NCBI GenBank assembly: GCA_021810205.1
Contig: JAJZJC010000002.1
Span: 1-64,000 of the forward strand
Length of the DNA: 64,000 nucleotides
DNA from: Actinomycetes bacterium
Lineage (GTDB): Bacteria; Actinomycetota; Acidimicrobiia; Acidimicrobiales; RAAP-2
Direction of reading: 5' to 3'
In this document: positions 51,312 through 64,000 of the stretch, piece by piece
How the letters are laid out: every line of letters begins with the position of its first letter
Position numbering within the stretch: position 1 is the stretch's first letter
The notes under the pieces: generated by a model
What the model saw: the letters and a program-made list of their open reading frames with translations, nothing else
The model's database searches: none
What the model was told of the DNA's origin: nothing
Position numbers and translations under genes: made by a program

Positions 51312-53222
51312 TTACCCTTCGCGACCGGGGCGTGCCGGCACCGCGCAGCCGAAATCCCGTTCGCTTCGCACACCTGCCATCGCCAGCACGGCGCGGGTGA
51401 CACGCTCGATCACCGCGTCACGCTGCGAGGCGACGACAAGGCCATGGTCGAGACCGGGCAGCACGTCGATGTGGAACCGTTCGTCGGTGCCATCATCGAG
51501 GCCGGCGTCGGCGAGCTGACCGGCTTCGGCTTCGCCGCACACGCAGTAGATCCGGACCCCGGCCGCGGCGAGCTCGGCGGTCCATGTGACGCGCCGCCGT
51601 CTCTTCGTCCGTGCGCCATCGAGCAGCCGCCGGACGGTCGCCAGCATCCTGCTGAGCCGGTCAGGTAGCACGCGCCGGGCGCCCGCGACCCATACCGGCC
51701 GGGGCTGGCAGAGCCGGCGCCGTGACGAGACGGGGCCTCCCTCGGCAAGCTCGGGCGGCGTGAACCGCAGCAACGGGTTGATGCCGATCACGCCGAGTGG
51801 CTTCAGCACCAGCGCGCTTTCCAGCGCCTGGTACGCGCCGGAGCAGAGGCCTGCGAGCACGGTCCTCTCGGGACCGCCGACGGCGTCGACGAGGTCAGCT
51901 ACGTCGTCGAACGCCTCGATCGCACGGATGACGCCCTCGGGCCGCCCCGGGCGAGGCGGGCTCTCGCCCAGACCGCTCAAGTCCACCCGCACAGAGCGAA
52001 TCCCGTGGGCGGCGAGCCGCCGAGCCAGCAGGACCCACAGCCGGACAGGGCCGACATGCGACTCATTGCCGCTGGAGAGGAACAGCACGGTCGCCGGCGC
52101 TGCCACTTCGGGCGCCGCACCACCACAGCATCCGTCCTCACCCGACGCCCAGCTGCGACCGTGCGGGACCGTCTCGATGCCGAACAAGCCTCGGGCTCCC
52201 AGGGCACGCACCCGTTCGAGGACGGCCACCTCTTCCTTCACGGCGGGGGGCACGACCATCGGCTCTGAGGCTCGGGCCATGCGCAGCGACTTCTCGGCCT
52301 CTGCGCGTCGGTCGACGTCCTCGGCAGCGGTCACCCCACATCGATCTCGGTCACGGCCAAGCTCACCCAACGCGCTCGAGACCCAGTCGACGACCAAGCT
52401 CGCGGTCGCCTCAGGTACCTGCTGGCGCAGCGGGTCGACCTCAAAGCAGTCCTCCTGCTCGCTCCCGACAGCGGTGAGGACGTCTGCCGAGTCGCCCGGC
52501 GTGGAGTCCCCATACGACTCGATCAGTGGCAGCCCAGCGCTCGTGGAGGAGGCGCGCACGACGTACAGCGCTCTTCGCGCCGAGAGAGTTCCGGGCAGCT
52601 CGAGCCGATCGATCGCCTCAACGGTCGCTGGATCCAGCTCGAACCCCGGAACCTCGACGCCTCTCGACGGATCGGGCCGCGGCACTCGGATCGCCTGTAG
52701 CGCGCGCTGACCCCGGAGGAACACTCGGCCGCTTGACGAGGGATCCCAGATCACCAGTGCGTCGACGTCCTGGCGCAGCACCGCCGACTGCGCGGCAACG
52801 AGGGCGCCCGAACGCACTCCCAAGAGCGCGAGCGGTCCCGCACAGCGAGCGCGCGCAAGCATGACCGCCTGGTCCACCCCCTCGAACCAGGCCGTGGCGC
52901 TCCGAGAGCCAGCCAGTGCCCCTCCGGAGTCACCCGTGCCGCGGTAGTCGAATCGCACAGCGACCAAGCCCCTGCGCGCCACGGCGCGCGCGACCACGCG
53001 GTAGAGGGCGAACGCAGCCGCCTGCTCCCCGAGCAGCGGGGGGACGAGCACGACCGCACCCCGCGGGGCCGACGCCGGTTCGTGCAGCCACGCGAAGATC
53101 GGCCATCGGCCCTGCTCGAGCCATACCGGCGTCTCGTCGGACACCTCTCGCCCTCTCACCCGCACTCTGCTGCGTCCGAGGAGATCGGCATCGGTCGTTC
53201 GCCGTTCCACCATGTCGATCAT
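51312..53222 (-). CDS. tandem alpha/beta-hydrolase didomain protein
   Basis: Two hydrolase halves: VRFDYRGTGDSGG and VRVDLSGLGESPPR...AGLCSGAYQAL. Confidence 0.75.
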   Translation of the reverse strand: MIDMVERRTTDADLLGRSRVRVRGREVSDETPVWLEQGRWPIFAWLHEPASAPRGAVVLVPPLLGEQAAAFALYRVVARAVARRGLVAVRFDYRGTGDSGGALAGSRSATAWFEGVDQAVMLARARCAGPLALLGVRSGALVAAQSAVLRQDVDALVIWDPSSSGRVFLRGQRALQAIRVPRPDPSRGVEVPGFELDPATVEAIDRLELPGTLSARRALYVVRASSTSAGLPLIESYGDSTPGDSADVLTAVGSEQEDCFEVDPLRQQVPEATASLVVDWVSSALGELGRDRDRCGVTAAEDVDRRAEAEKSLRMARASEPMVVPPAVKEEVAVLERVRALGARGLFGIETVPHGRSWASGEDGCCGGAAPEVAAPATVLFLSSGNESHVGPVRLWVLLARRLAAHGIRSVRVDLSGLGESPPRPGRPEGVIRAIEAFDDVADLVDAVGGPERTVLAGLCSGAYQALESALVLKPLGVIGINPLLRFTPPELAEGGPVSSRRRLCQPRPVWVAGARRVLPDRLSRMLATVRRLLDGARTKRRRRVTWTAELAAAGVRIYCVCGEAEAGQLADAGLDDGTDERFHIDVLPGLDHGLVVASQRDAVIERVTRAVLAMAGVRSERDFGCAVPARPGREG

Positions 53223-55759
53223 CGTCGTTGCACCACGATGGGGACGTGGTCCGGGGAGTTCAGCGCCTGGACCGTCCCCCGGGGAACCAGCATGGCGTCG
53301 CCCGCCGAGCCCTCTTCCTGCCAAAGCTCGACGGTCCGTCGACGGCCTGGCGGGAGGTGGAACCAGGAGTCCGCCGGAATGAAGCCCTCCACCCGGAGGC
53401 TGACCCACTGGGCAAGGCGCTCGGACTGGACGTCCACCCGCCAACACCCGTCCGAGCCCTGATGGGCGGACGCCCGAAGCCCCAGGTCCCGTTCGAAGGT
53501 ACGGGCCTGCCCCAGCGGCAGGTAGACGACCTGCGCGAGGGGGGTGTCTGCATTGGGGCCGGTGCCGTCGACCCCTGCACGGGGCAACAGCGTCGCCACC
53601 ACCGCGTCGTACGCGGGCGGAGCGAACCGATAGGCGTACGTGACGTCGCGCCACGCGCCCAGGACCTCCTCGGCGCCGATCGAGAAGCTGCCGCGCCCCG
53701 CTACGTCCACGGCGACGTCGGCCCGCTCCACCAACACCGCGCCGGGAGCCACGAGCGCCACCTCGAGGAGGGCCGCGACGGGCTGCGGACCGTCGTTCAC
53801 GACGTGGAGGGCGAGCCCGTTCAATCCTTCGTCCACCGCGAGGAGCGCAAGCGGCGCCAGCACGCGCCGCAAGGCGTACCAGGGCGCTTTCGGCCGGCCG
53901 GCACTGTCGACGAGACCCCAGCCGGCCCCGGCCCGCAGATCGGACAGCGCCAGCACGAGGCCGCCGTCGCACGGCGACCCTGGGCGCCGCCACTCGGTGA
54001 ACACAGCCTCCATCAACACGGCGTTCGCAGCCCGTCCCAGCTCGAGCGCCCGCTCGGGGTCGGCGTAGCGGACCTGGAACGGATCGACGCCGAAGAGAGA
54101 GCCGACGTAGTGGGACCGCACGTCCTCCATGTCCCAGCTGCGGCCGGCGTCGTGGTGGACGGCCCGCTTCCATTCGGGGTCGTGACCGGCACGAGTGGCG
54201 CCGCCGCACAGCTCCTCCACAGTCTGGGGCTCAGGCGGAGTCGCGAGTGCCAGGCACTCGGCGGCAAAGCGAACCGAGGCGCGCCGGACGTCGTCAAGGG
54301 GCCGGAGGTACCCCCCGACCCCGAAGTACTGGCTCACCCCCTGGTCCATGCGGAATGGCGGTTCTCCGCCAGACGGGTTGGAGGCCACGTAGGGAATGCC
54401 GGGCAGCACCTCGGCGACCACGTCGGCCAGGAGCTCGTCGAAGAGCGGCGTGGCTCGACGTTCCGCTGGGAGACCGAACATCGCCGCGACCTCCTCCACC
54501 TCCTGATTCCCGCACACGACCGCGAGACTCGGATGACCGTCGAGGGCGACCAACGATTCGCGCGTCTCGGCCACCATCTCGGCCCGGAAACACTCGTCGT
54601 CAGGGGGGTCCATGAACGCGAACATGCAGTCCTGCCAGACAAGCATGCCAAGCTCGTCGCACTGTTCGACGAAGGAAGGAGTGGGCAGCACAGTGGTCCC
54701 CGGTACCCGGACCATGTTCATCCCGGCCGCCTTGGCAAGCTCCAGCAAATGGCGCTCGGGCCGTCCGGCTGCGCCCGGCGACAGCGGGTCGGGCGGGAAC
54801 CACACCGCCCCCCGGCAGAATATCCGGACGTCGTTCACCTGCAGCTCGAAGCCGCCGTCGGCACGCTCGAGACCCAGGGTGCGGAAGCCGACCGACCCGA
54901 GAACACAGGCACGATCGCCCAGCTCCGCCACAACTTGGTACCGGGGTTGTGGACCATGGGTGTGGGGCCACCATCGCTCGGCGTCCGAGAGGGTGACCGA
55001 CCCGGCACACAAGAGCTCACCATCTGACTCGCGCCACTCGAGCGGCGCCGTCGCGCCACCAACGACGAGACGGCCCGGCCCTTGTCCAACACGCGCGGCC
55101 GCTGCTGCTCTTGGCAGACAGAAGTGCGCCTCGACCGCGCCGCCGCCGTCTGGGAGGCAGCTCGTGCGCAGCCACACGTCGGTCACGCTCGACCCGTCGA
55201 GCGCGATGAGCTCGACCGGTCTCCACAGCCCGACAACCGGCGGGACCTCCGCCCATCCCGGCATGCGGCCGAGCAGGCTGGTACGAATCCAACGCAGCTG
55301 CTGGTGCTCGACGAGATAGGTCTTCCAGCGCGGCCGTGGCCGCCGATCACGTAGGACCGGGCCGAGTGCCGCACACCGGACAACCAGCTCGCAGTCACCC
55401 AGAAGATCACCGACATCGACGGTTGCCGCACGGTGCATCGTCGATGACGTCAGCACATGCTCACCGTTCAGCCAGACGTCCGCCAACGTGGCGATGCCCT
55501 CGAACCGGACGCGATAGGGACCACCGGGCCCCTTGAAGCGGCAACGGAACCACCAGTCGGACTCGTCCAACGCCTCATGGTGCAGTGGTCGCCCGGCGGC
55601 GCGCAGGGCGGAAGCCACGGTGCCCGGCACCTGGGCCGGGAACCAGTCCACGTGCTCTGTGAGCATCCCGACGCTCGCCATCGCCCCTGCGTCGCCCTGG
55701 GCGCATTCCCATCCAGCCTCGAGGCGCACCGGCCTGCCCCTCACCGGTCCGCCTCTCAC
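53219..55759 (-). CDS. glycoside hydrolase family 2 (beta-mannosidase-like)
   Basis: WFPAQVPGTVASALRAAGR...DESDWWFRCRFKGPGGPYRVRFEGIATLADVWLNG; GTG start 55759 overlaps upstream stop (GTGA). Confidence 0.88.
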   Translation of the reverse strand: MRGGPVRGRPVRLEAGWECAQGDAGAMASVGMLTEHVDWFPAQVPGTVASALRAAGRPLHHEALDESDWWFRCRFKGPGGPYRVRFEGIATLADVWLNGEHVLTSSTMHRAATVDVGDLLGDCELVVRCAALGPVLRDRRPRPRWKTYLVEHQQLRWIRTSLLGRMPGWAEVPPVVGLWRPVELIALDGSSVTDVWLRTSCLPDGGGAVEAHFCLPRAAAAARVGQGPGRLVVGGATAPLEWRESDGELLCAGSVTLSDAERWWPHTHGPQPRYQVVAELGDRACVLGSVGFRTLGLERADGGFELQVNDVRIFCRGAVWFPPDPLSPGAAGRPERHLLELAKAAGMNMVRVPGTTVLPTPSFVEQCDELGMLVWQDCMFAFMDPPDDECFRAEMVAETRESLVALDGHPSLAVVCGNQEVEEVAAMFGLPAERRATPLFDELLADVVAEVLPGIPYVASNPSGGEPPFRMDQGVSQYFGVGGYLRPLDDVRRASVRFAAECLALATPPEPQTVEELCGGATRAGHDPEWKRAVHHDAGRSWDMEDVRSHYVGSLFGVDPFQVRYADPERALELGRAANAVLMEAVFTEWRRPGSPCDGGLVLALSDLRAGAGWGLVDSAGRPKAPWYALRRVLAPLALLAVDEGLNGLALHVVNDGPQPVAALLEVALVAPGAVLVERADVAVDVAGRGSFSIGAEEVLGAWRDVTYAYRFAPPAYDAVVATLLPRAGVDGTGPNADTPLAQVVYLPLGQARTFERDLGLRASAHQGSDGCWRVDVQSERLAQWVSLRVEGFIPADSWFHLPPGRRRTVELWQEEGSAGDAMLVPRGTVQALNSPDHVPIVVQRR

Positions 55760-56832
55760 CGGTCCGCCTTCGACGAGTTCGACGGCTCGAAGGGCCACCG
55801 CGTGGCGCGCTCGTCGCCGCCACGTCGGGGTCGCCCACGGCGGCTGGTGCCCGCCGCGCCGACAGCAGCCGACACCGCGTCGCTCACCGCCCCGATCCCC
55901 GCCGCCCAGCTGGCTGCGAGTGGAGCGAAGAGCACGTCCACGTCGACGGCACGACCGCGGACCGCGCGCGCCATGGCCATCTGCGCCGCCTTCGCCTCGA
56001 TGGCCACGGTCTCGAGCGCCGCAGCGCCATCCGAGGCGCCGGCCACACCTGCCGCCTCGAGCCACGTGGCGAAGGAAGCGGCCAGCTCGGCATTGGCCCC
56101 GCACTGTCGCAGGGTGCCGAAGGCCCAGCGGTGGAAGGCGTCAAGCCCCTCCCGCTGAAGCCGGTCTAGGTCGTGGAGCACCCGCTCCGCCATCTGGATG
56201 ACCGGATTACCCTGGGCGCGACGGCTGAGATGTGCGGCAGCAAGCCTGATCGCCACGGCAGGGTCGGTGGCCCCGGGCGGTCGGCGCCTGCCCAGGCGGA
56301 CCTGGAGCGTGTATGGCGGCAGCACGTCTGGTGCCGGCGTTTCGGGCAGCAGGGTCTCGAAGTCCTCGCCGCGGAGCTCGTAGCAGCCGGCGTTGTGCAG
56401 GTACCGCAGGGATCGCCGCTCGGTATCGATGGACGTCACCATGAGCGTCGTCTTCTGATGGACCCGTCGATACGTGAGGCCCGCGGTGTCAGGAAGGCAC
56501 CATGCGTCTGCGTCGAACGCCACGAGGTTGCCCAGCGCGAGCTGCTCGACGACGTGCTCCCGCAACGGCCGCCAGACGTTCAGCTCGTCCGCCTCGATCC
56601 CATAGAGCGACGAGAGGGTCTCCTGGGGGTAGGTGAACATTCTCCACTGGTCCCCATCGAAGCCCGAGGCAAGCGTGAAGGAGAGCCCTGCAACCGGGTC
56701 GTAGCCGAGCGCGTGGAGCGCCTCGATCCACAGATCGGCGGCGCAGTTCGTCTCCGACCAGATGCGGTCCACGCCGTGCAGCCGGTGGGGTCGGTATCGA
56801 ACAGGGTCGAGACCGAAGACATCAGCTCGCAT
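55756..56832 (-). CDS. DUF1839/BtrH-N-like protein
   Basis: MRADVFGLDPVRYRPHRLHGVDRIWSETNCAADLWIEALHALGYDPVAGLSFTLASGFDGDQWRMFTYP; family known beside aa:CP ligases. Confidence 0.75.
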   Translation of the reverse strand: MRADVFGLDPVRYRPHRLHGVDRIWSETNCAADLWIEALHALGYDPVAGLSFTLASGFDGDQWRMFTYPQETLSSLYGIEADELNVWRPLREHVVEQLALGNLVAFDADAWCLPDTAGLTYRRVHQKTTLMVTSIDTERRSLRYLHNAGCYELRGEDFETLLPETPAPDVLPPYTLQVRLGRRRPPGATDPAVAIRLAAAHLSRRAQGNPVIQMAERVLHDLDRLQREGLDAFHRWAFGTLRQCGANAELAASFATWLEAAGVAGASDGAAALETVAIEAKAAQMAMARAVRGRAVDVDVLFAPLAASWAAGIGAVSDAVSAAVGAAGTSRRGRPRRGGDERATRWPFEPSNSSKADR

Positions 56833-56850: not shown

Positions 56851-57864
56851 TCAGGCTTGCGGGCCGGCCAGCCCGAGCTGGGCCCGCACGTAGAAGGGCC
56901 ACGATGCCGGGTCCAAGCCGTGGACGGCCAACATCGCGACCACGATGCGGTCGATGCCGAAGGCCACGCACGCGCTGTGCGCCACCTCTCCCGCAGCGGA
57001 ATGGATACCGAAGGACTTGCCGAAATGGTCCCGGTGACTGTTGGCGGACATGACCGCGGTCTCACCCTCGGTCCCCGGGATGGGAGTGACGCCCTCAATC
57101 TTCAACTGCTCCTCCAGCTGTCCGGCAGCGAGCACATTGCCCACGCGCCCGAAGAACGGGTCGGACGCCGGGACGGCCCGCATCGAGAGTCCGAGGCCCT
57201 CGAGCATGCGCAGGCCGCAAGCCAGCCCCTCCTCCCTGTGGTTCCACGCGCTCTCGGCACTCCCCACATGGACGATCTCGTGCATCACGAACGACTGCAG
57301 GCGAGCCGCGTTCACGCTCGGCTCGTGACGGAAACATGAGCTCTGGACGTCGAAGATCCTGCCGCCTTCGGGCAGTGTCCCGGTGCACAAGGGGTAGACG
57401 CCGTGGCACGCGGCGGAGCACAAGACGACGTCCGCCGGCTCGAGCAGGGCGGGCCAGTCCCCGTCGGACGCCACCCGCTGCAGGAGCTGCTTGTGCTCGG
57501 CATCACCGCCAGTGAAGACGTGCACCGACCCCATCAGGTCGGGGAACGACTCGAGGTAGTTGGTGTGGAGGAAGGTGGAGCGTGCCAGGACCGGGGGCAG
57601 GTGGACCCGCTGCGCCCCAAGATCCTGGCCCCACCGGCGCACCATGAGGCCGACACCGTCGGCCACGTCCTGGTAGACGCCGGAGCGTCCGTAGAGCCCG
57701 AGGACCCCGGTCGGCACGAGCAGGCCGGCTTTCAGCATCTTGTCGACGAGCGAGGAGTGCCCCGCGACCGGGGCTCGGGGGTCGGAAGGTGCGACCAGCG
57801 TGCCGGGGTACCCGGTCGTGGCCTCCTCGGCGTAGTGCACGTGGGTCTGGACCATTACTGTCAC
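56851..57864 (-). CDS. amino acid--[acyl-carrier-protein] ligase (truncated class-II SerRS-like)
   Basis: SCFRHEPSVNAARLQSFVMHEIVHVGS (motif 2), SACVAFGIDRIVVAMLAVHG (motif 3); no tRNA-binding domain. Confidence 0.85.
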   Translation of the reverse strand: MTVMVQTHVHYAEEATTGYPGTLVAPSDPRAPVAGHSSLVDKMLKAGLLVPTGVLGLYGRSGVYQDVADGVGLMVRRWGQDLGAQRVHLPPVLARSTFLHTNYLESFPDLMGSVHVFTGGDAEHKQLLQRVASDGDWPALLEPADVVLCSAACHGVYPLCTGTLPEGGRIFDVQSSCFRHEPSVNAARLQSFVMHEIVHVGSAESAWNHREEGLACGLRMLEGLGLSMRAVPASDPFFGRVGNVLAAGQLEEQLKIEGVTPIPGTEGETAVMSANSHRDHFGKSFGIHSAAGEVAHSACVAFGIDRIVVAMLAVHGLDPASWPFYVRAQLGLAGPQA

Positions 57865-59093
57865 GGCTTTCCTTCATGTCGGTCGTTCTCGATTGGATCC
57901 CTGGAGAGGAGGAGCAGCTGGGCGTTGTCTCCGAGAATGCGGTCGTTGCTCACCATGAGCTCGGCACTATGGGCGTCGCGAAGCTGCCGACCCAGGCTGA
58001 ACGGGGTCCCTTCGCGATACCCGTCCATGCCGCAAACGGCCAGCGCGCCGCTCACCACTTCGACGACCAGCTTCGACGCCCCGAGCTTGAGGGCGTTCAG
58101 GGTGACCGCATCACCGACGCCCTCCGCCCGACGCCCTCCCGCGTCCTCGTCGTAGCGGGCGAGAGTCGCGGACACGAGCCCGTCGAGCTGGTGGAAGACC
58201 ACGTCGAGCTCGGCGAGCCGACGAGCCCCCGGCGGCACGGTGCCTGGTTCGTGGCGTGCCTTTCTTCGAACGAACGCACTGGCCTTGGACACCGCGGCGT
58301 CGGCGATCCCGAGCCAGACGTGGCTCCACAGGATGTGGGAGTACGGCAGCATCGTCTCGGCTGCCACATCGGCGAACGGGTCGTCGACGATCATTGTCAA
58401 CGGGCCGGCGGCACGGAGCATGAAACCGGGGCTGCACGTGCCCCGCAGTCCCAGCGTGTCCCACTGGCCCGTCTGCTCGAGCAGGACGTCCGGCCGAACG
58501 CACGCCGCGAGCACCTGGTCTCCTGGAGCACTTTCGGGCGTGCGTCGAGCCGTGACCAGCACCGCATCGGCGGACGCCCCGTAGGAGACCACCGGCGCCC
58601 GCTTCTCCAGCACGAAGCGTCCGTTCTCGGCGTGCACGGCGCAGCTGCTCTCGCGCAGCCTCCCACCGCTGCCGGCCTCGGTGGTCGCCGAGGCCAGAAG
58701 GAGCTGACGGCCCGCGACGTCGGCCAGAAAGCGAAGCAAGCCAGGCGATCGGCCGTGACGCACGAGGCACGCCACCTGAAGGTGATGCATCGCCAGGATC
58801 ATGGCACTCGACGCGCAGTAGCGAGCCAGCGCACGCACGCCTGCGCCGGCCTCGCCGAGCGTCGCGCCCCTCCCTCCAAGCCCCTCGGGGACAAGAGCCC
58901 CGAGGACGCCGGCTTCTTTCAGCGCGTCGAAGGCCTCGATCGGGAACCGGGCGGACCGGTCGACGTCGTCGGCGTGGGCAGCAGCCACGTCACGTCCGAT
59001 CCTCCTCACGGACTGCAGGAGGGTAGGAGCTTGGACCTCCGCGGCGACCGACGTGGCATCTGCCGCTGCGTCCTGCACGACTGAGACGGTCAT
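57861..59093 (-). CDS. acyl-CoA dehydrogenase family protein
   Basis: LASATTEAGSGG..., GLGGRGATLGEAGAGVRALARYCASSAMILAMHH. Confidence 0.85.
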   Translation of the reverse strand: MTVSVVQDAAADATSVAAEVQAPTLLQSVRRIGRDVAAAHADDVDRSARFPIEAFDALKEAGVLGALVPEGLGGRGATLGEAGAGVRALARYCASSAMILAMHHLQVACLVRHGRSPGLLRFLADVAGRQLLLASATTEAGSGGRLRESSCAVHAENGRFVLEKRAPVVSYGASADAVLVTARRTPESAPGDQVLAACVRPDVLLEQTGQWDTLGLRGTCSPGFMLRAAGPLTMIVDDPFADVAAETMLPYSHILWSHVWLGIADAAVSKASAFVRRKARHEPGTVPPGARRLAELDVVFHQLDGLVSATLARYDEDAGGRRAEGVGDAVTLNALKLGASKLVVEVVSGALAVCGMDGYREGTPFSLGRQLRDAHSAELMVSNDRILGDNAQLLLLSRDPIENDRHEGKP

Positions 59094-59359
59094 GCCGGTA
59101 CTTCCATCGTCTCGAGCGCGCCGAGCGCTCGCCGAAGCGCGCTGATCGACGAGAACGTGCTCTTTCGCAGCATCGCCTCTGGAAACTCCACGTCGAAGGC
59201 GTCCTCCAGTGCGAGCATGACGTTCACGCTGGCATGGGAGGTCATCCCCGCCTGGAACAGGTCGTCGTCGTCGGAAAGGCGCTCCACGTGCACCGGCAGG
59301 CGGCCATGCTCGGCCAGTACGCCACGTATGCGTTGCGTCAGCTCGTCCGTCTTGCTCAT
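59090..59359 (-). CDS. candidate independently translated carrier protein (internal start of the AcpS-ACP ORF)
   Basis: ATG at 59359 preceded by GAGGAG with 7-nt spacer (gaggagcacatcgATG). Confidence 0.6.
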   Translation of the reverse strand: MSKTDELTQRIRGVLAEHGRLPVHVERLSDDDDLFQAGMTSHASVNVMLALEDAFDVEFPEAMLRKSTFSSISALRRALGALETMEVPA

Positions 59360-59854
59360 CGATGTGCTCCTCGGGTGTTGGTTCGATCGATCGTGAGGGG
59401 AGGTCTCAGGAGCTCCTGGGCATGCCTTCTTCGCTGGCCGGTCGCAGACGGCCACCACCACGGCGAGCGCGATCCCTGATTCATGGCTGAGGCTCACGCT
59501 CATGCGGCCGGTCCCGCGTCGGGCGGCGAGCGAGGCAGCCCGGTCGTGCAGGCGTATGCGGCAGGCGCCGTTGGATCGACGCACCACCTCGATGTCGCGC
59601 CATTGTGGCCGGGCCCCATGCGGCTCGAGCACCTTCAGGACCGCTTCTTTGGCCGCGAAGCGAGCCGCCAGTGACGCGGCAGCGCCAGGACCGTGGCCGC
59701 AGCTTGCAATCTCCTGCTTGGTGAACAGGCGCTCGACATAGCGATCCCCGAACAGTGCGACGGACTTGGCGACGTCCGTGACCGCCGTGACGTCGACGCC
59801 GACCCTGACGTCGCCGAGCGTGCCGTCGGTGGCCCGAAGACCGAGCTCAGGCAT
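59090..59854 (-). CDS. holo-ACP synthase (AcpS-like) fused in frame to acyl carrier protein
   Basis: VGVDVTAVTDV...FTKQEIASC...LAARFAAKEAVLK...VSLSHESGIALAVVVAV followed without stop by MSKTDELTQRIRGVLAEHG...AGMTSHASVNVMLALEDAFDVEFPE. Confidence 0.85.
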   Translation of the reverse strand: MPELGLRATDGTLGDVRVGVDVTAVTDVAKSVALFGDRYVERLFTKQEIASCGHGPGAAASLAARFAAKEAVLKVLEPHGARPQWRDIEVVRRSNGACRIRLHDRAASLAARRGTGRMSVSLSHESGIALAVVVAVCDRPAKKACPGAPETSPHDRSNQHPRSTSMSKTDELTQRIRGVLAEHGRLPVHVERLSDDDDLFQAGMTSHASVNVMLALEDAFDVEFPEAMLRKSTFSSISALRRALGALETMEVPA

Positions 59855-62144
59855 CCAGGCCTCCCAGTACCCGTCGGAGCAGATCGTCGGCGTTCTGATC
59901 GCACGGAAGAGACACGACCAGGTGCTCGGCTCGTGCGGTCCATGGGGTGGACCCCACGGGGATTCCCTCATCTGCCAAGGCGGCGAGCGCCGCTCCCTCG
60001 AGGTGCGCTGCCACTCGAGCACCGTCTTCAGCGGGGTCGGCGAACACCACCACCACCGCCACGAAGAGCGACGACCCGACGCGTGCGAGCAGGTCGTCGA
60101 ACCGCAGCTCGGCTCGGAGCCTCTTCGCCACCGTCGCCAAGAGCTCCTCGGGCGCGCTAGCTGCGCGCCCATGAACGGCCGTCGCACCGCGCCGAACCTC
60201 GATGCCGACCAGCGCCACGGACCAGCCCGGTTGGTGCACCGCCCCGAGCAGTCGCCCAATCCGCGCCAGCAGCACCGCACCGGTCGCGAGCCCCGTGACC
60301 GGATCGGTGTCGGCCAGGAATCGCGCGGCCGCGTCGTGGCTCCTCGCGTCGCGAGGGATGGGGCCGACGCCGGCTCCCATCTGCGTCCATGACGCCCTTG
60401 GAGCGCCCGGGAGGCCGGAGGATGGCTCTCCAGAGGCATGCCCCAAGAGCGTGGCGGCGCGCTCGGCTGCGCGAGAGCTTGCAGAGTCAGCGACGACGCC
60501 GGACCGCACATCGAGCGCGTCGAGCAATGAGAACCTCTGCACGGTCGCAGTACGGGGGGCGATCGCTCCATTCGCCGCCATCTCAGCGCCTCGGATCCGA
60601 GGTCCGCTGATCGCGAGGACGACTTGCGCCGGTGTGAGCACCGGTTGCGGGGCGACCGAGCCCCTGTCGGGCGCAGGCGTGCCCTTCTCGCGCGATCGCC
60701 GAACGATGGTTGTCCAGGCTGTCGATATCAGGCGCCACAGCTCTGCTCGCGTCGAACGGACGGCAAACAGCGCGAGCGTCGGGGCGAGCAGCAGGAAGCC
60801 CCACCGGATCGGGACGAGAGGAATGAACATGGGAGACGCGAGTGCGACAAGTGGAAGGATGAGCCGCCGGTATTCGAGCGGGATCAGTCGCTGCGCCGCG
60901 ACGTGCGTATTGATCGTGGAGGCCACGGCAGCGAGCGCGGCGATCCCGTACCCGATGAGCCCAAGCTCTCGCACAGCCACCAGCGCGACGAGGCTCACGA
61001 TCACCAGCTCGAGCACACTCGTGATGGCGGGCGCGCCGTTCCTTCCGTAGGCATACAGAACGGTCCGCTGGGCCGTGGCCGGGACTCTGAGCGTCGCCCA
61101 GAGGGCCAGCAGCACGTACAGGGGCAGCGCGGGGAGCCAGACGCGCCCGAAGCCAACGAGGATGGCCCAGTGCGCGAACAGGCCGAAGACGACGAACGGG
61201 AGTGCCGAGATAACCAGCAGTAGCAGCGTGCCCTCTTCCAGCGCCGCCGCGAGACGACCCGACTTGGACTCGCTCGCCCGCGAGATGGCCGCCAGCCCGA
61301 TGCGATGCACGCCCCGGTCGGTGAAGTTCATCGTCAAGACGAGCCGTTGGGCGAAGTTCACCAAGCCGACGCCAGCTGCGCCCGCGAAGGTGCCGACGAT
61401 CATCGTGAGGATTGCCGAACGTACCCCCGCCACCCACGTCGTGACGGAGAAGGTCCTCCCGTGCACGATCAGTTCGCGCGCCGTGCGGTTCGACCACGCA
61501 AGCCGGGGCCAGAGCCCCGAGAGCGCCATGCTCCCGACGAGGAGCCAGCTCTGCCAGGCGAAGAAGCCCGCGATCAGCGACCAAGGTCCTGCCCCCATCA
61601 CGGCGAGGGGCACCGCCGTGCCGTACAGCACCACATCTCCGCCGAGCTCCAGGAGGCCCAACTGCCGAAATGCGAACCTTCGCTCGAGACGCGCCTGCAT
61701 CGGCGCCCAGAGAATGTTGACGGGCACGCTCAAGAGCAGCACCCGCATCGGAGGCACGACGCCATGGGGTCGGAGCAGCGGGCCGACGAGGTACGAGATG
61801 CCCATTCCCGCAGCCACGACAACGCCAGAGGCAACGAGCAACGTCGTGAACACCTCGTCGTAGCGTCGCCGCGGCAGGGGTCCTGGCTGGCGGATGAGGA
61901 AGACCTCTGCGCCCATCTGCGCGAGGGTCGCGGGGAGCACGACGTATGCAGCTGCCGCGCTGTAGAGCCCGAAGTCCGACGGTCCGATCCTCCGCATCAC
62001 AAGCACCAGGCCGAGCAGTCGGATGCCGACCCCCAGCACTTCGCGCCCCGTCAGGTACGCCGCGCTGCGGATAGCCGTCTCCCGCAAGGAGCTGGGCGTC
62101 TCCAGCTCCCTTCCTCTCCCACCACCACGCGCTCGGCCCAACAT
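59847..62144 (-). CDS. Wzx/MATE-type polysaccharide flippase with C-terminal degenerate GGDEF domain
   Basis: N-terminal YLTGREVLGVGIRLLGLVLVMRRIGPSDFGLYSAAAAYVVLPATLAQMG; C-terminal DPVTGLATGAVLLARIGRLLG...LRFDDLLARVGSSLFVAVVV. Confidence 0.88.
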   Translation of the reverse strand: MLGRARGGGRGRELETPSSLRETAIRSAAYLTGREVLGVGIRLLGLVLVMRRIGPSDFGLYSAAAAYVVLPATLAQMGAEVFLIRQPGPLPRRRYDEVFTTLLVASGVVVAAGMGISYLVGPLLRPHGVVPPMRVLLLSVPVNILWAPMQARLERRFAFRQLGLLELGGDVVLYGTAVPLAVMGAGPWSLIAGFFAWQSWLLVGSMALSGLWPRLAWSNRTARELIVHGRTFSVTTWVAGVRSAILTMIVGTFAGAAGVGLVNFAQRLVLTMNFTDRGVHRIGLAAISRASESKSGRLAAALEEGTLLLLVISALPFVVFGLFAHWAILVGFGRVWLPALPLYVLLALWATLRVPATAQRTVLYAYGRNGAPAITSVLELVIVSLVALVAVRELGLIGYGIAALAAVASTINTHVAAQRLIPLEYRRLILPLVALASPMFIPLVPIRWGFLLLAPTLALFAVRSTRAELWRLISTAWTTIVRRSREKGTPAPDRGSVAPQPVLTPAQVVLAISGPRIRGAEMAANGAIAPRTATVQRFSLLDALDVRSGVVADSASSRAAERAATLLGHASGEPSSGLPGAPRASWTQMGAGVGPIPRDARSHDAAARFLADTDPVTGLATGAVLLARIGRLLGAVHQPGWSVALVGIEVRRGATAVHGRAASAPEELLATVAKRLRAELRFDDLLARVGSSLFVAVVVVFADPAEDGARVAAHLEGAALAALADEGIPVGSTPWTARAEHLVVSLPCDQNADDLLRRVLGGLDA

Positions 62145-62161: not shown

Positions 62162-63376
62162 TCAGCCCGCACGAAGCTTCACCACCGCGGCACGAAGCAG
62201 CTCGTCTGCGTCCTGCCCGCCGTTGAGCGGCGCGACAGCATGCGCCGCGTGGACGCGCGCACCGGCGATCCTCGCGACCGCAGCCCGCGCCTGCCCAGAC
62301 ACATGATCCTCCACCTGCGCCGCGGTCGCGCCTCCGGGGGCGAGCGGCACCACGGCGACGAACGACAGCTCGCCGATGCGCGCCACTGGATCGTCGAAGC
62401 GCAGGCCTGTCCGTATCGACCGAACCACGTCGGTGACGCGATCCGCCGACGGATCCTCCACTCCCTCGATCTCCACGGCCACCGCGGCAAGGGAGCCGCT
62501 CATCGACGACCCTGCGCCGAGCAGCCTGCCAGCTCTCCCGAGAAGGGCACCGAGCGGGACCAGCCCGTCGATCTCCTCCTCTTCGACCAGGAGGGAACGA
62601 AAGGAGTCCTCTTGACGCGCGCGCGCGGGCTCGTCGTGTCCCGGCGCTCTGTCGCCGGCCTGCAAATCGACGGCGCGAAGGCTCGCTGATCGGCGATCAC
62701 CGGTGCTGCCTTTGCTGCCTTCCCGCACCGGGAACGCCGGGAACGCACCGGCGCCCGCGGGCAACCCGTCACGCCACCGTGCGACCGCGGCGCCGGGGAC
62801 GTCGCCGCCGATCGCCGCTGAAGCGGGCCGGGATCCGGCGTCGTCCTCGGATGCTCCCTCACCCCGAGGCGCAGGCTCCTGCGGCATCGGCATTGCGTCG
62901 AGTGCCGGCTCCGACGCCGTCTTGGTGTCGGTCTCAGTCGCGCGAATCAGCCGGTTGCGCACCGCGCGACGCGCCTGGACGTACGAGGTCATCCGCCGAG
63001 CGATCCTGGAGAGCAGCTCGAGCTCGGGCATCCCGAACGTCCTGCCGCTCGGATCGACGGCGCCCAAGATTCCCGCGAGTTGATCCTGCCCATTGACCGC
63101 GACAGGCACAGCGACGACCGCCAAGCGCTCATCGCCGATCTGCATGGTGCGCACGACGGCCTTGCCACGCCCGAGGCCAGGATCATGCCAGAGCTGGCGG
63201 ATGAGGCAGTCCACCGTCGACTCTTCTACTGCGCCCGGCTCGGCGGAGACGGGGTAAACAAGAGAAGCAAACGAGTCGGCGGACTGCGCGAGTGCCACGA
63301 ACGACGAGGCACTCTGGCAACCGCTCCGCGCAATCCGGAGCAGGTTGATCGTCCCCCCACTCAGTCGCTGTTCCAT
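62162..63376 (-). CDS. GAF + degenerate GGDEF-domain protein
   Basis: MEQRLSGGTINLLRIARSGCQ...LAGILGAVDPSGRTFGMPELELLSRIARRM; LRFDDPVARIGELSFVAVVPL; ATG 63376. Confidence 0.8.
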   Translation of the reverse strand: MEQRLSGGTINLLRIARSGCQSASSFVALAQSADSFASLVYPVSAEPGAVEESTVDCLIRQLWHDPGLGRGKAVVRTMQIGDERLAVVAVPVAVNGQDQLAGILGAVDPSGRTFGMPELELLSRIARRMTSYVQARRAVRNRLIRATETDTKTASEPALDAMPMPQEPAPRGEGASEDDAGSRPASAAIGGDVPGAAVARWRDGLPAGAGAFPAFPVREGSKGSTGDRRSASLRAVDLQAGDRAPGHDEPARARQEDSFRSLLVEEEEIDGLVPLGALLGRAGRLLGAGSSMSGSLAAVAVEIEGVEDPSADRVTDVVRSIRTGLRFDDPVARIGELSFVAVVPLAPGGATAAQVEDHVSGQARAAVARIAGARVHAAHAVAPLNGGQDADELLRAAVVKLRAG

Positions 63377-63492
63377 CTCTTCGTGCTCCCCGCTCCCTCG
63401 TTTGGCTACTCCGTCGTTCGGCCACCCTCTCGTTGGGGTGGCCTTTGCCAGAGCTCGTCCGACTACCGGGTCAACGATACGAAACGGCCGTC

Positions 63493-64000
63493 TCAGTGCC
63501 GTTTGCACCGCGTCCCACGCCGCTGCCAACGTGCGATCGAGCCGCCCCCATCAGGCGCCCAGGACGCACCACCCACCCGCTGACCGACAAGACCCCCTGG
63601 CGTCAAGACCTTCTGACCGGCAAGAAGGTCCTGGCGGAGCACTGCGGCAGCACGCGGGAACGTCCCGCCAGTCAGTGCCAGTGCCTGGTAGTCCCAAAGC
63701 ATGCACATGACGAGGTGCTCGCTCACCGCCCATCGCAGCATCTGCGAGACGAACCTGGCATCGTCGCCTGCACCCCCGAGCGACGACGGGATCTCGCCCC
63801 ACATGGCGATAGCCATCGGTTTGTGGTGAGCAGCAGCAAAAGAGGCCATCCACGCGGGTCCGAAGCGCTCGTGGAGCACGGTCGACCAGTGCCCGGCTGT
63901 CGATGGGTCATCGGCGACGAAATCGAACGCGTCGGTGCCGACGATGCCGACGGCCTTGTTGCCCGGGTACATAGCGGCCGGGCTCACCGGTGAAGTGCCT
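63493..64000 (-). CDS. glycosyl hydrolase (GH26-like) C-terminal part, 5' end beyond window
   Basis: MYPGNKAVGIVGTDAFDF...FAAAHHKPMAIAMWGEIPSSLGGAGDDARFVSQML; frame open to window end. Confidence 0.6.
   Translation of the reverse strand, partial: GTSPVSPAAMYPGNKAVGIVGTDAFDFVADDPSTAGHWSTVLHERFGPAWMASFAAAHHKPMAIAMWGEIPSSLGGAGDDARFVSQMLRWAVSEHLVMCMLWDYQALALTGGTFPRAAAVLRQDLLAGQKVLTPGGLVGQRVGGASWAPDGGGSIARWQRRGTRCKRH

Follow-up and report, generated by a model that had tools for sequence, protein, structure and literature searches.

An AcpS-type phosphopantetheinyl transferase joined in frame to an aminoacyl carrier protein in an Acidimicrobiaceae amino acid:[carrier protein] ligase module

The fused reading frame and its operon

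The stretch of DNA that has been analysed (the window, 64,000 nucleotides) belongs to the draft genome of an uncultured actinobacterium of the Acidimicrobiaceae and carries on its minus strand an operon that is, by its sequence matches, an amino acid:[carrier protein] (aa:CP) ligase module. Within this operon, a complete AcpS-type phosphopantetheinyl transferase (PPTase) is joined in frame to a complete aminoacyl carrier protein (CP), with about 27 codons between the two. The features of the locus are given below in the direction of transcription; G043 and G064, here and later, are two congeners, and those relatives that bear names are Acidimicrobiaceae metagenome assemblies.

59847..62144, minus strand: MOP-type polysaccharide flippase with a GGDEF-like C-terminal part, upstream; its 3' end overlaps the AcpS start (ATGCCTGA)
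59860..59865, minus strand: GGGAGG, Shine-Dalgarno-like site of AcpS, 5 nt before ATG 59854
59090..59854, minus strand: single AcpS-linker-CP ORF, 254 aa plus stop TGA 59092-59090; one frame, stop-free
59441..59854, minus strand: AcpS (group I phosphopantetheinyl transferase) part, residues 1-138, assigned by Pfam ACPS, 34 relatives and PDB AcpS relatives
59360..59440, minus strand: linker of 27 codons from the AcpS C-terminal tail, without a stop in the fused frame
59367..59372, minus strand: GAGGAG, Shine-Dalgarno-like site of CP, 7 nt before ATG 59359
59356..59358, minus strand: TGA of an ATGA overlap, out of frame in the window; the AcpS stop in congener G064
59093..59359, minus strand: aminoacyl carrier protein, 89 aa, with its own ATG; assigned by Pfam PP-binding, NF005480 and PDB 4h2w
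57861..59093, minus strand: acyl-CoA-dehydrogenase-like enzyme, in ATGA overlap with the CP stop
56851..57864, minus strand: amino acid:[carrier protein] ligase (SerRS-like), in GTGA overlap with the preceding gene
55756..56832, minus strand: DUF1839 protein of the aa:CP module (Pfam PF08893, 5.7e-97)

The initial annotation had described 59854-59090 as one minus-strand ORF in which AcpS is read into CP without a stop, and both the coordinates, with a start at ATG 59854, and the two Pfam domains agree with this. Likewise, the sequence has borne out the separate CP start at ATG 59359 with GAGGAG at 7 nt (59372-59367), and the proposed products of roughly 27 and 10 kDa compare with computed masses of 27.3 kDa for the fusion (254 aa) and 9.8 kDa for the free CP (89 aa). 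The proposed module identity has held up as well, as the ligase passes the curated NCBIfam NF005479 cut-off (369.5 bits vs 357). At three other junctions of the operon the genes meet in short overlaps (ATGCCTGA, ATGA and GTGA), and among these junctions a stop has been lost solely between AcpS and CP.

The AcpS part (Pfam ACPS at fusion residues 17-115, 8e-15) clearly exceeds the Pfam cut-off (55.2 bits vs 25) and lies just over that of TIGR00516 (60.1 bits vs 59.8). It contains the GxD and KExxxK motifs, with D21, E70 and K74 invariant in 34 relatives and H124 also conserved alongside them (invariant or nearly invariant in the same set), and among its closest solved relatives are the PPT domains of fungal fatty acid synthase (FAS), 7bc4 and 2was. 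The CP part (Pfam PP-binding at fusion residues 186-239, 3e-7) scores above the NF005480 cut-off and has the aminoacyl carrier protein 4h2w_C as its best PDB match (4e-17 with the protein, 5e-25 with the profile); 4h2s, another aminoacyl carrier protein structure, has been matched too. The predicted phosphopantetheine serine, S41 of CP and residue 206 of the fusion, is invariant in the CP alignment. A second acpS, the housekeeping copy, has been found in the window genome between glmS and nnrD, and because of this separate gene the fused AcpS would be free to specialise.

Modules of this type, aa:CP ligase modules, are known (Mocibob et al., 2010), and the neighbourhoods of their SerRS-like ligases have been described by authors who suggest that a cell-surface sugar receives the amino acid (PMC2922099). 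The window locus resembles these modules in its ligase, which passes NF005479, and in its CP, which matches the solved 4h2w and 4h2s. As judged from its gene content, the neighbourhood also fits that description, having in common a dehydrogenase-like enzyme, a conserved uncharacterised protein, a glycosidase and polysaccharide genes: beyond DUF1839 follow an ORF of the glycoside hydrolase 2 family and exosortase-associated hydrolases.

Some further features of the neighbourhood have been recorded. One ORF at 51312-53204 (minus strand) matches TIGR03101 (residues 28-211) and TIGR03100 (residues 367-479), both of them exosortase-A-associated hydrolase models and both below cut-off; it may thus be another in-frame fusion within this operon. 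In G064 and G043 a second copy of the GGDEF-like part of the flippase is situated directly upstream. The ORF at 62162-63529 (minus strand) has given no Pfam or NCBIfam match, and its end resembles, by eye, the GGDEF-like part of the next gene.

Distribution and origin of the open frame

Strong matches to the query have been obtained in 40 of the 172 Acidimicrobiaceae genomes searched, and a single uninterrupted match over AcpS and CP has been seen in this family only in the window genome and in G043; when 396 genomes of the phylum were scanned in addition, no other match spanning both was returned. The cluster is present in three genomes of the genus, fused in the window species and G043 and divided into separate genes in G064, where the AcpS stop lies in the ATGA overlap with the CP start. 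An equivalent (GGAGG) of the window's GGGAGG site of AcpS is present in both congeners. Over residues 15-254 the G043 fusion is 70% identical to that of the window and likewise stop-free. The sampling of adjacent AcpS-CP pairs extended across several phyla (from Acidimicrobiaceae to Burkholderiales, Myxococcales and Rhodococcus). Of the 76 distinct pairs obtained, these two are the only fused ones and the stop is kept in the other 74; unlike those separate genes, the window AcpS precedes CP in one frame. The comparison with relatives that the initial annotation had relied on for confirmation or refutation has thus come out divided, with G043 sharing the fused frame and nearly all orthologs, G064 included, having separate genes with a stop. 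Because of the latter, the fusion characterises, within this sampling, a lineage rather than the aa:CP module as such.

Taken alone, the absent stop is not striking, because shuffled versions of the 81-nt window linker with its composition kept have been stop-free in 54% of cases (60% for the G043 linker). The chance of a linker both in frame and open amounts to ~1/3 x 0.54 = 0.18 for the window and to 18-20% per event over both species. The fusion rises above this chance level because 74 of the 76 pairs keep the stop while a 70%-identical congener shares the fused frame. A long open frame as such has been rejected as proof of fusion: at locus L140, a frame of 570 codons, as GC-rich DNA can yield, is open upstream of a CP without any AcpS.

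With the fusion seen in two draft assemblies only, an assembly or sequencing error has to be weighed, in which a 1-nt error would mask the normal AcpS stop, e.g., the TGA in ctcctgagacc (59408-59406) or the ATGA at 59358 (TGA 59358-59356), both of which are in other frames than the fusion. The window genome is indeed a draft metagenome-type assembly (3.0 Mb, 177 contigs, 72% complete), alternative stops do lie one frame off, and G064 has the normal separate arrangement. We nevertheless regard such an error as improbable. The identical fused frame has been found in G043, an independent assembly of another species, and for the same error to have struck both assemblies is unlikely, given how far apart the two species are (third codon positions of CP are 57% identical between them). 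The window assembly does not appear prone to indels either, because about 2,700 neighbouring codons, in the flippase, the acyl-CoA-dehydrogenase-like gene, the ligase, DUF1839 and GH2, align with G064 without any frame break, and inspection of the window linker has revealed no long homopolymer run. These alignments are therefore better read as a genuine change of frame in the AcpS tail.

The trace of such a change may still be read at the CP start: CP begins with ATGA in all three congeners, and the sequence thus still contains the former stop, shifted by one frame. The 25 nt that immediately precede the CP ATG align between the window and G064 without gaps (20/25 identical; 0 of 2000 shuffles), whereas the upstream rest of the window linker has shown no alignment to G064 or G043 beyond chance, and neither GC3 (0.59) nor alignment has given a clear signal of coding constraint in the linker. 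Because these last 25 nt are ungapped, the frame-shifting indel most likely lies further upstream, in the part of the variable AcpS tail that is more than 25 nt away from the CP ATG. An indel in the non-conserved tail of the dedicated AcpS would thus have shifted the frame, either in the ancestor of the genus or in two lineages within it. Ribosomes would then pass the old ATGA-type stop and continue into the CP gene behind. The module tree groups the window species with the non-fused G064, if weakly (68% bootstrap), and therefore would imply that the fusion was gained twice or was gained once and lost once.

The G043 linker (L136 9052-9109, minus strand) contains a tandem duplication with a 33-nt period (gtggccgcactgtgcgacacgcccg repeated), a multiple of three by which the frame is kept.

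Internal start and proposed working of the fusion

In the window species and in G043, AcpS would be obtainable only as a fusion, because no stop separates the two parts. Free CP would in turn depend on internal initiation at ATG 59359, and CP may also start alone from this old ATG and its Shine-Dalgarno-like site. The duplex energy of that site (-6.4) equals the median of 76 CP leaders, and 24% of positions within AcpS reach or surpass this strength; in G043 the site is strong (-10.1). No RNA structure has been detected at the AcpS/CP junction (z 0.96), and no promoter or terminator has been found inside the fusion ORF. That only the free CP works, with internal initiation at 59359 furnishing nearly all CP and the fusion amounting to a low-level AcpS with a passenger that acts as enzyme only, would account for the retained CP start and leader and would suit carrier-protein systems, which need CP in excess of its modifying enzyme. 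We consider it very improbable: loss of the ATGA overlap removes translational coupling, start sites within a translated gene are often weakly used, and the Shine-Dalgarno-like site of the window CP is of median strength.

A self-modifying enzyme-carrier chain is the natural reading of the fused protein, because the catalytic residues D21, E70, K74 and H124 as well as S206 are intact, and self-phosphopantetheinylation of the fusion is plausible on these grounds. AcpS enzymes are trimers with active sites between the subunits. The fused AcpS units would trimerise as usual, each with a CP tethered by some 35 flexible residues, and at their active sites phosphopantetheine could be transferred to these CPs as well as to free CP. 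Once in the holo form, CP would be charged with an amino acid by the aa:CP ligase, and the dehydrogenase-like and DUF1839 enzymes may then modify this amino acid or hand it over, the probable acceptor being a cell-surface sugar. What we infer here comprises expression, trimerisation, self-modification and internal initiation, together with the pathway product and any benefit of the fusion. Still more tentatively, and as a rather doubtful extension, the fusion might constitute a minimal self-activating carrier, in which CP is modified in cis or within the trimer, the trimer acts as a three-armed aminoacyl hub, and the internal start sets the ratio of tethered to free CP.

The main rival to such a working is a neutral fusion, in which the stop was lost by drift and the fused protein is made without benefit; tethering would add nothing, as AcpS and CP meet anyway, and proteases may cut the linker into two normal proteins. 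This is a serious possibility, if short of an even chance. The length of the AcpS tail varies widely in relatives, so that extra C-terminal sequence is evidently tolerated, an indel at random would leave the linker open and in frame in the above 18-20% of events, the linker is not conserved between the window species and G043, and the closest congener, G064, manages without the fusion. Against drift, however, stands the retention of the stop in 74 of 76 pairs, by which the separate state is normally favoured, and the fused state has either been preserved in two distant congeners or originated on two occasions. Taken as a whole, a real, lineage-specific gene fusion that probably arms itself and is accompanied by some free CP, working as proposed, is with moderate confidence the best explanation.

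Relation to known single-chain systems

The alpha subunit of fungal type I FAS combines ACP and a C-terminal PPT domain on one chain, where the PPT acts in cis (PMC3909215). The window fusion is similar in having a PPTase and its carrier on one chain, yet differs in architecture, as the fungal PPT domain is C-terminal in a huge multi-enzyme, whereas the window AcpS is N-terminal and directly precedes one CP, without synthase domains. A built-in PPTase domain is also found in the enediyne PKSs CalE8 and SgcE (PMC3107222). These likewise hold a carrier and its activating enzyme within one polypeptide but are, unlike the window fusion, multi-domain PKSs. Their PPTase domain is of a different kind from AcpS. 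The PUFA synthase of Pseudoalteromonas sp. DS-12, with a PPTase domain inside PfaC, provides a parallel, as it shows how, within a single lineage, a synthase gene can take up a PPTase gene that was formerly separate (PMC3098273); its ACPs reside on another protein, PfaA, so that, in contrast to the window fusion, it is not a PPTase-carrier pair.

The initial annotation had known of no AcpS-ACP fusion in aa:CP modules, and the open-access literature, to which our search was directed, concurs: no report of a plain AcpS-CP gene fusion has been found there, while other single-chain proteins of PPTase and carrier are well known. Accordingly, the bare AcpS-CP pair adds a small new twist to an arrangement already known. 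With both states extant in one genus, it can be seen there how overlapping but separate genes give way to a fused pair of enzyme and substrate. If self-modifying, the fusion would be, to our knowledge, the smallest natural PPTase-carrier protein, and would offer a ready-made tool to load carriers without added PPTase.

In aa:CP modules the CP gene is commonly preceded at once by a dedicated AcpS, across several phyla (loci L046-L125) and beyond this family, and this recurrence may be taken as a clue to the pathway.
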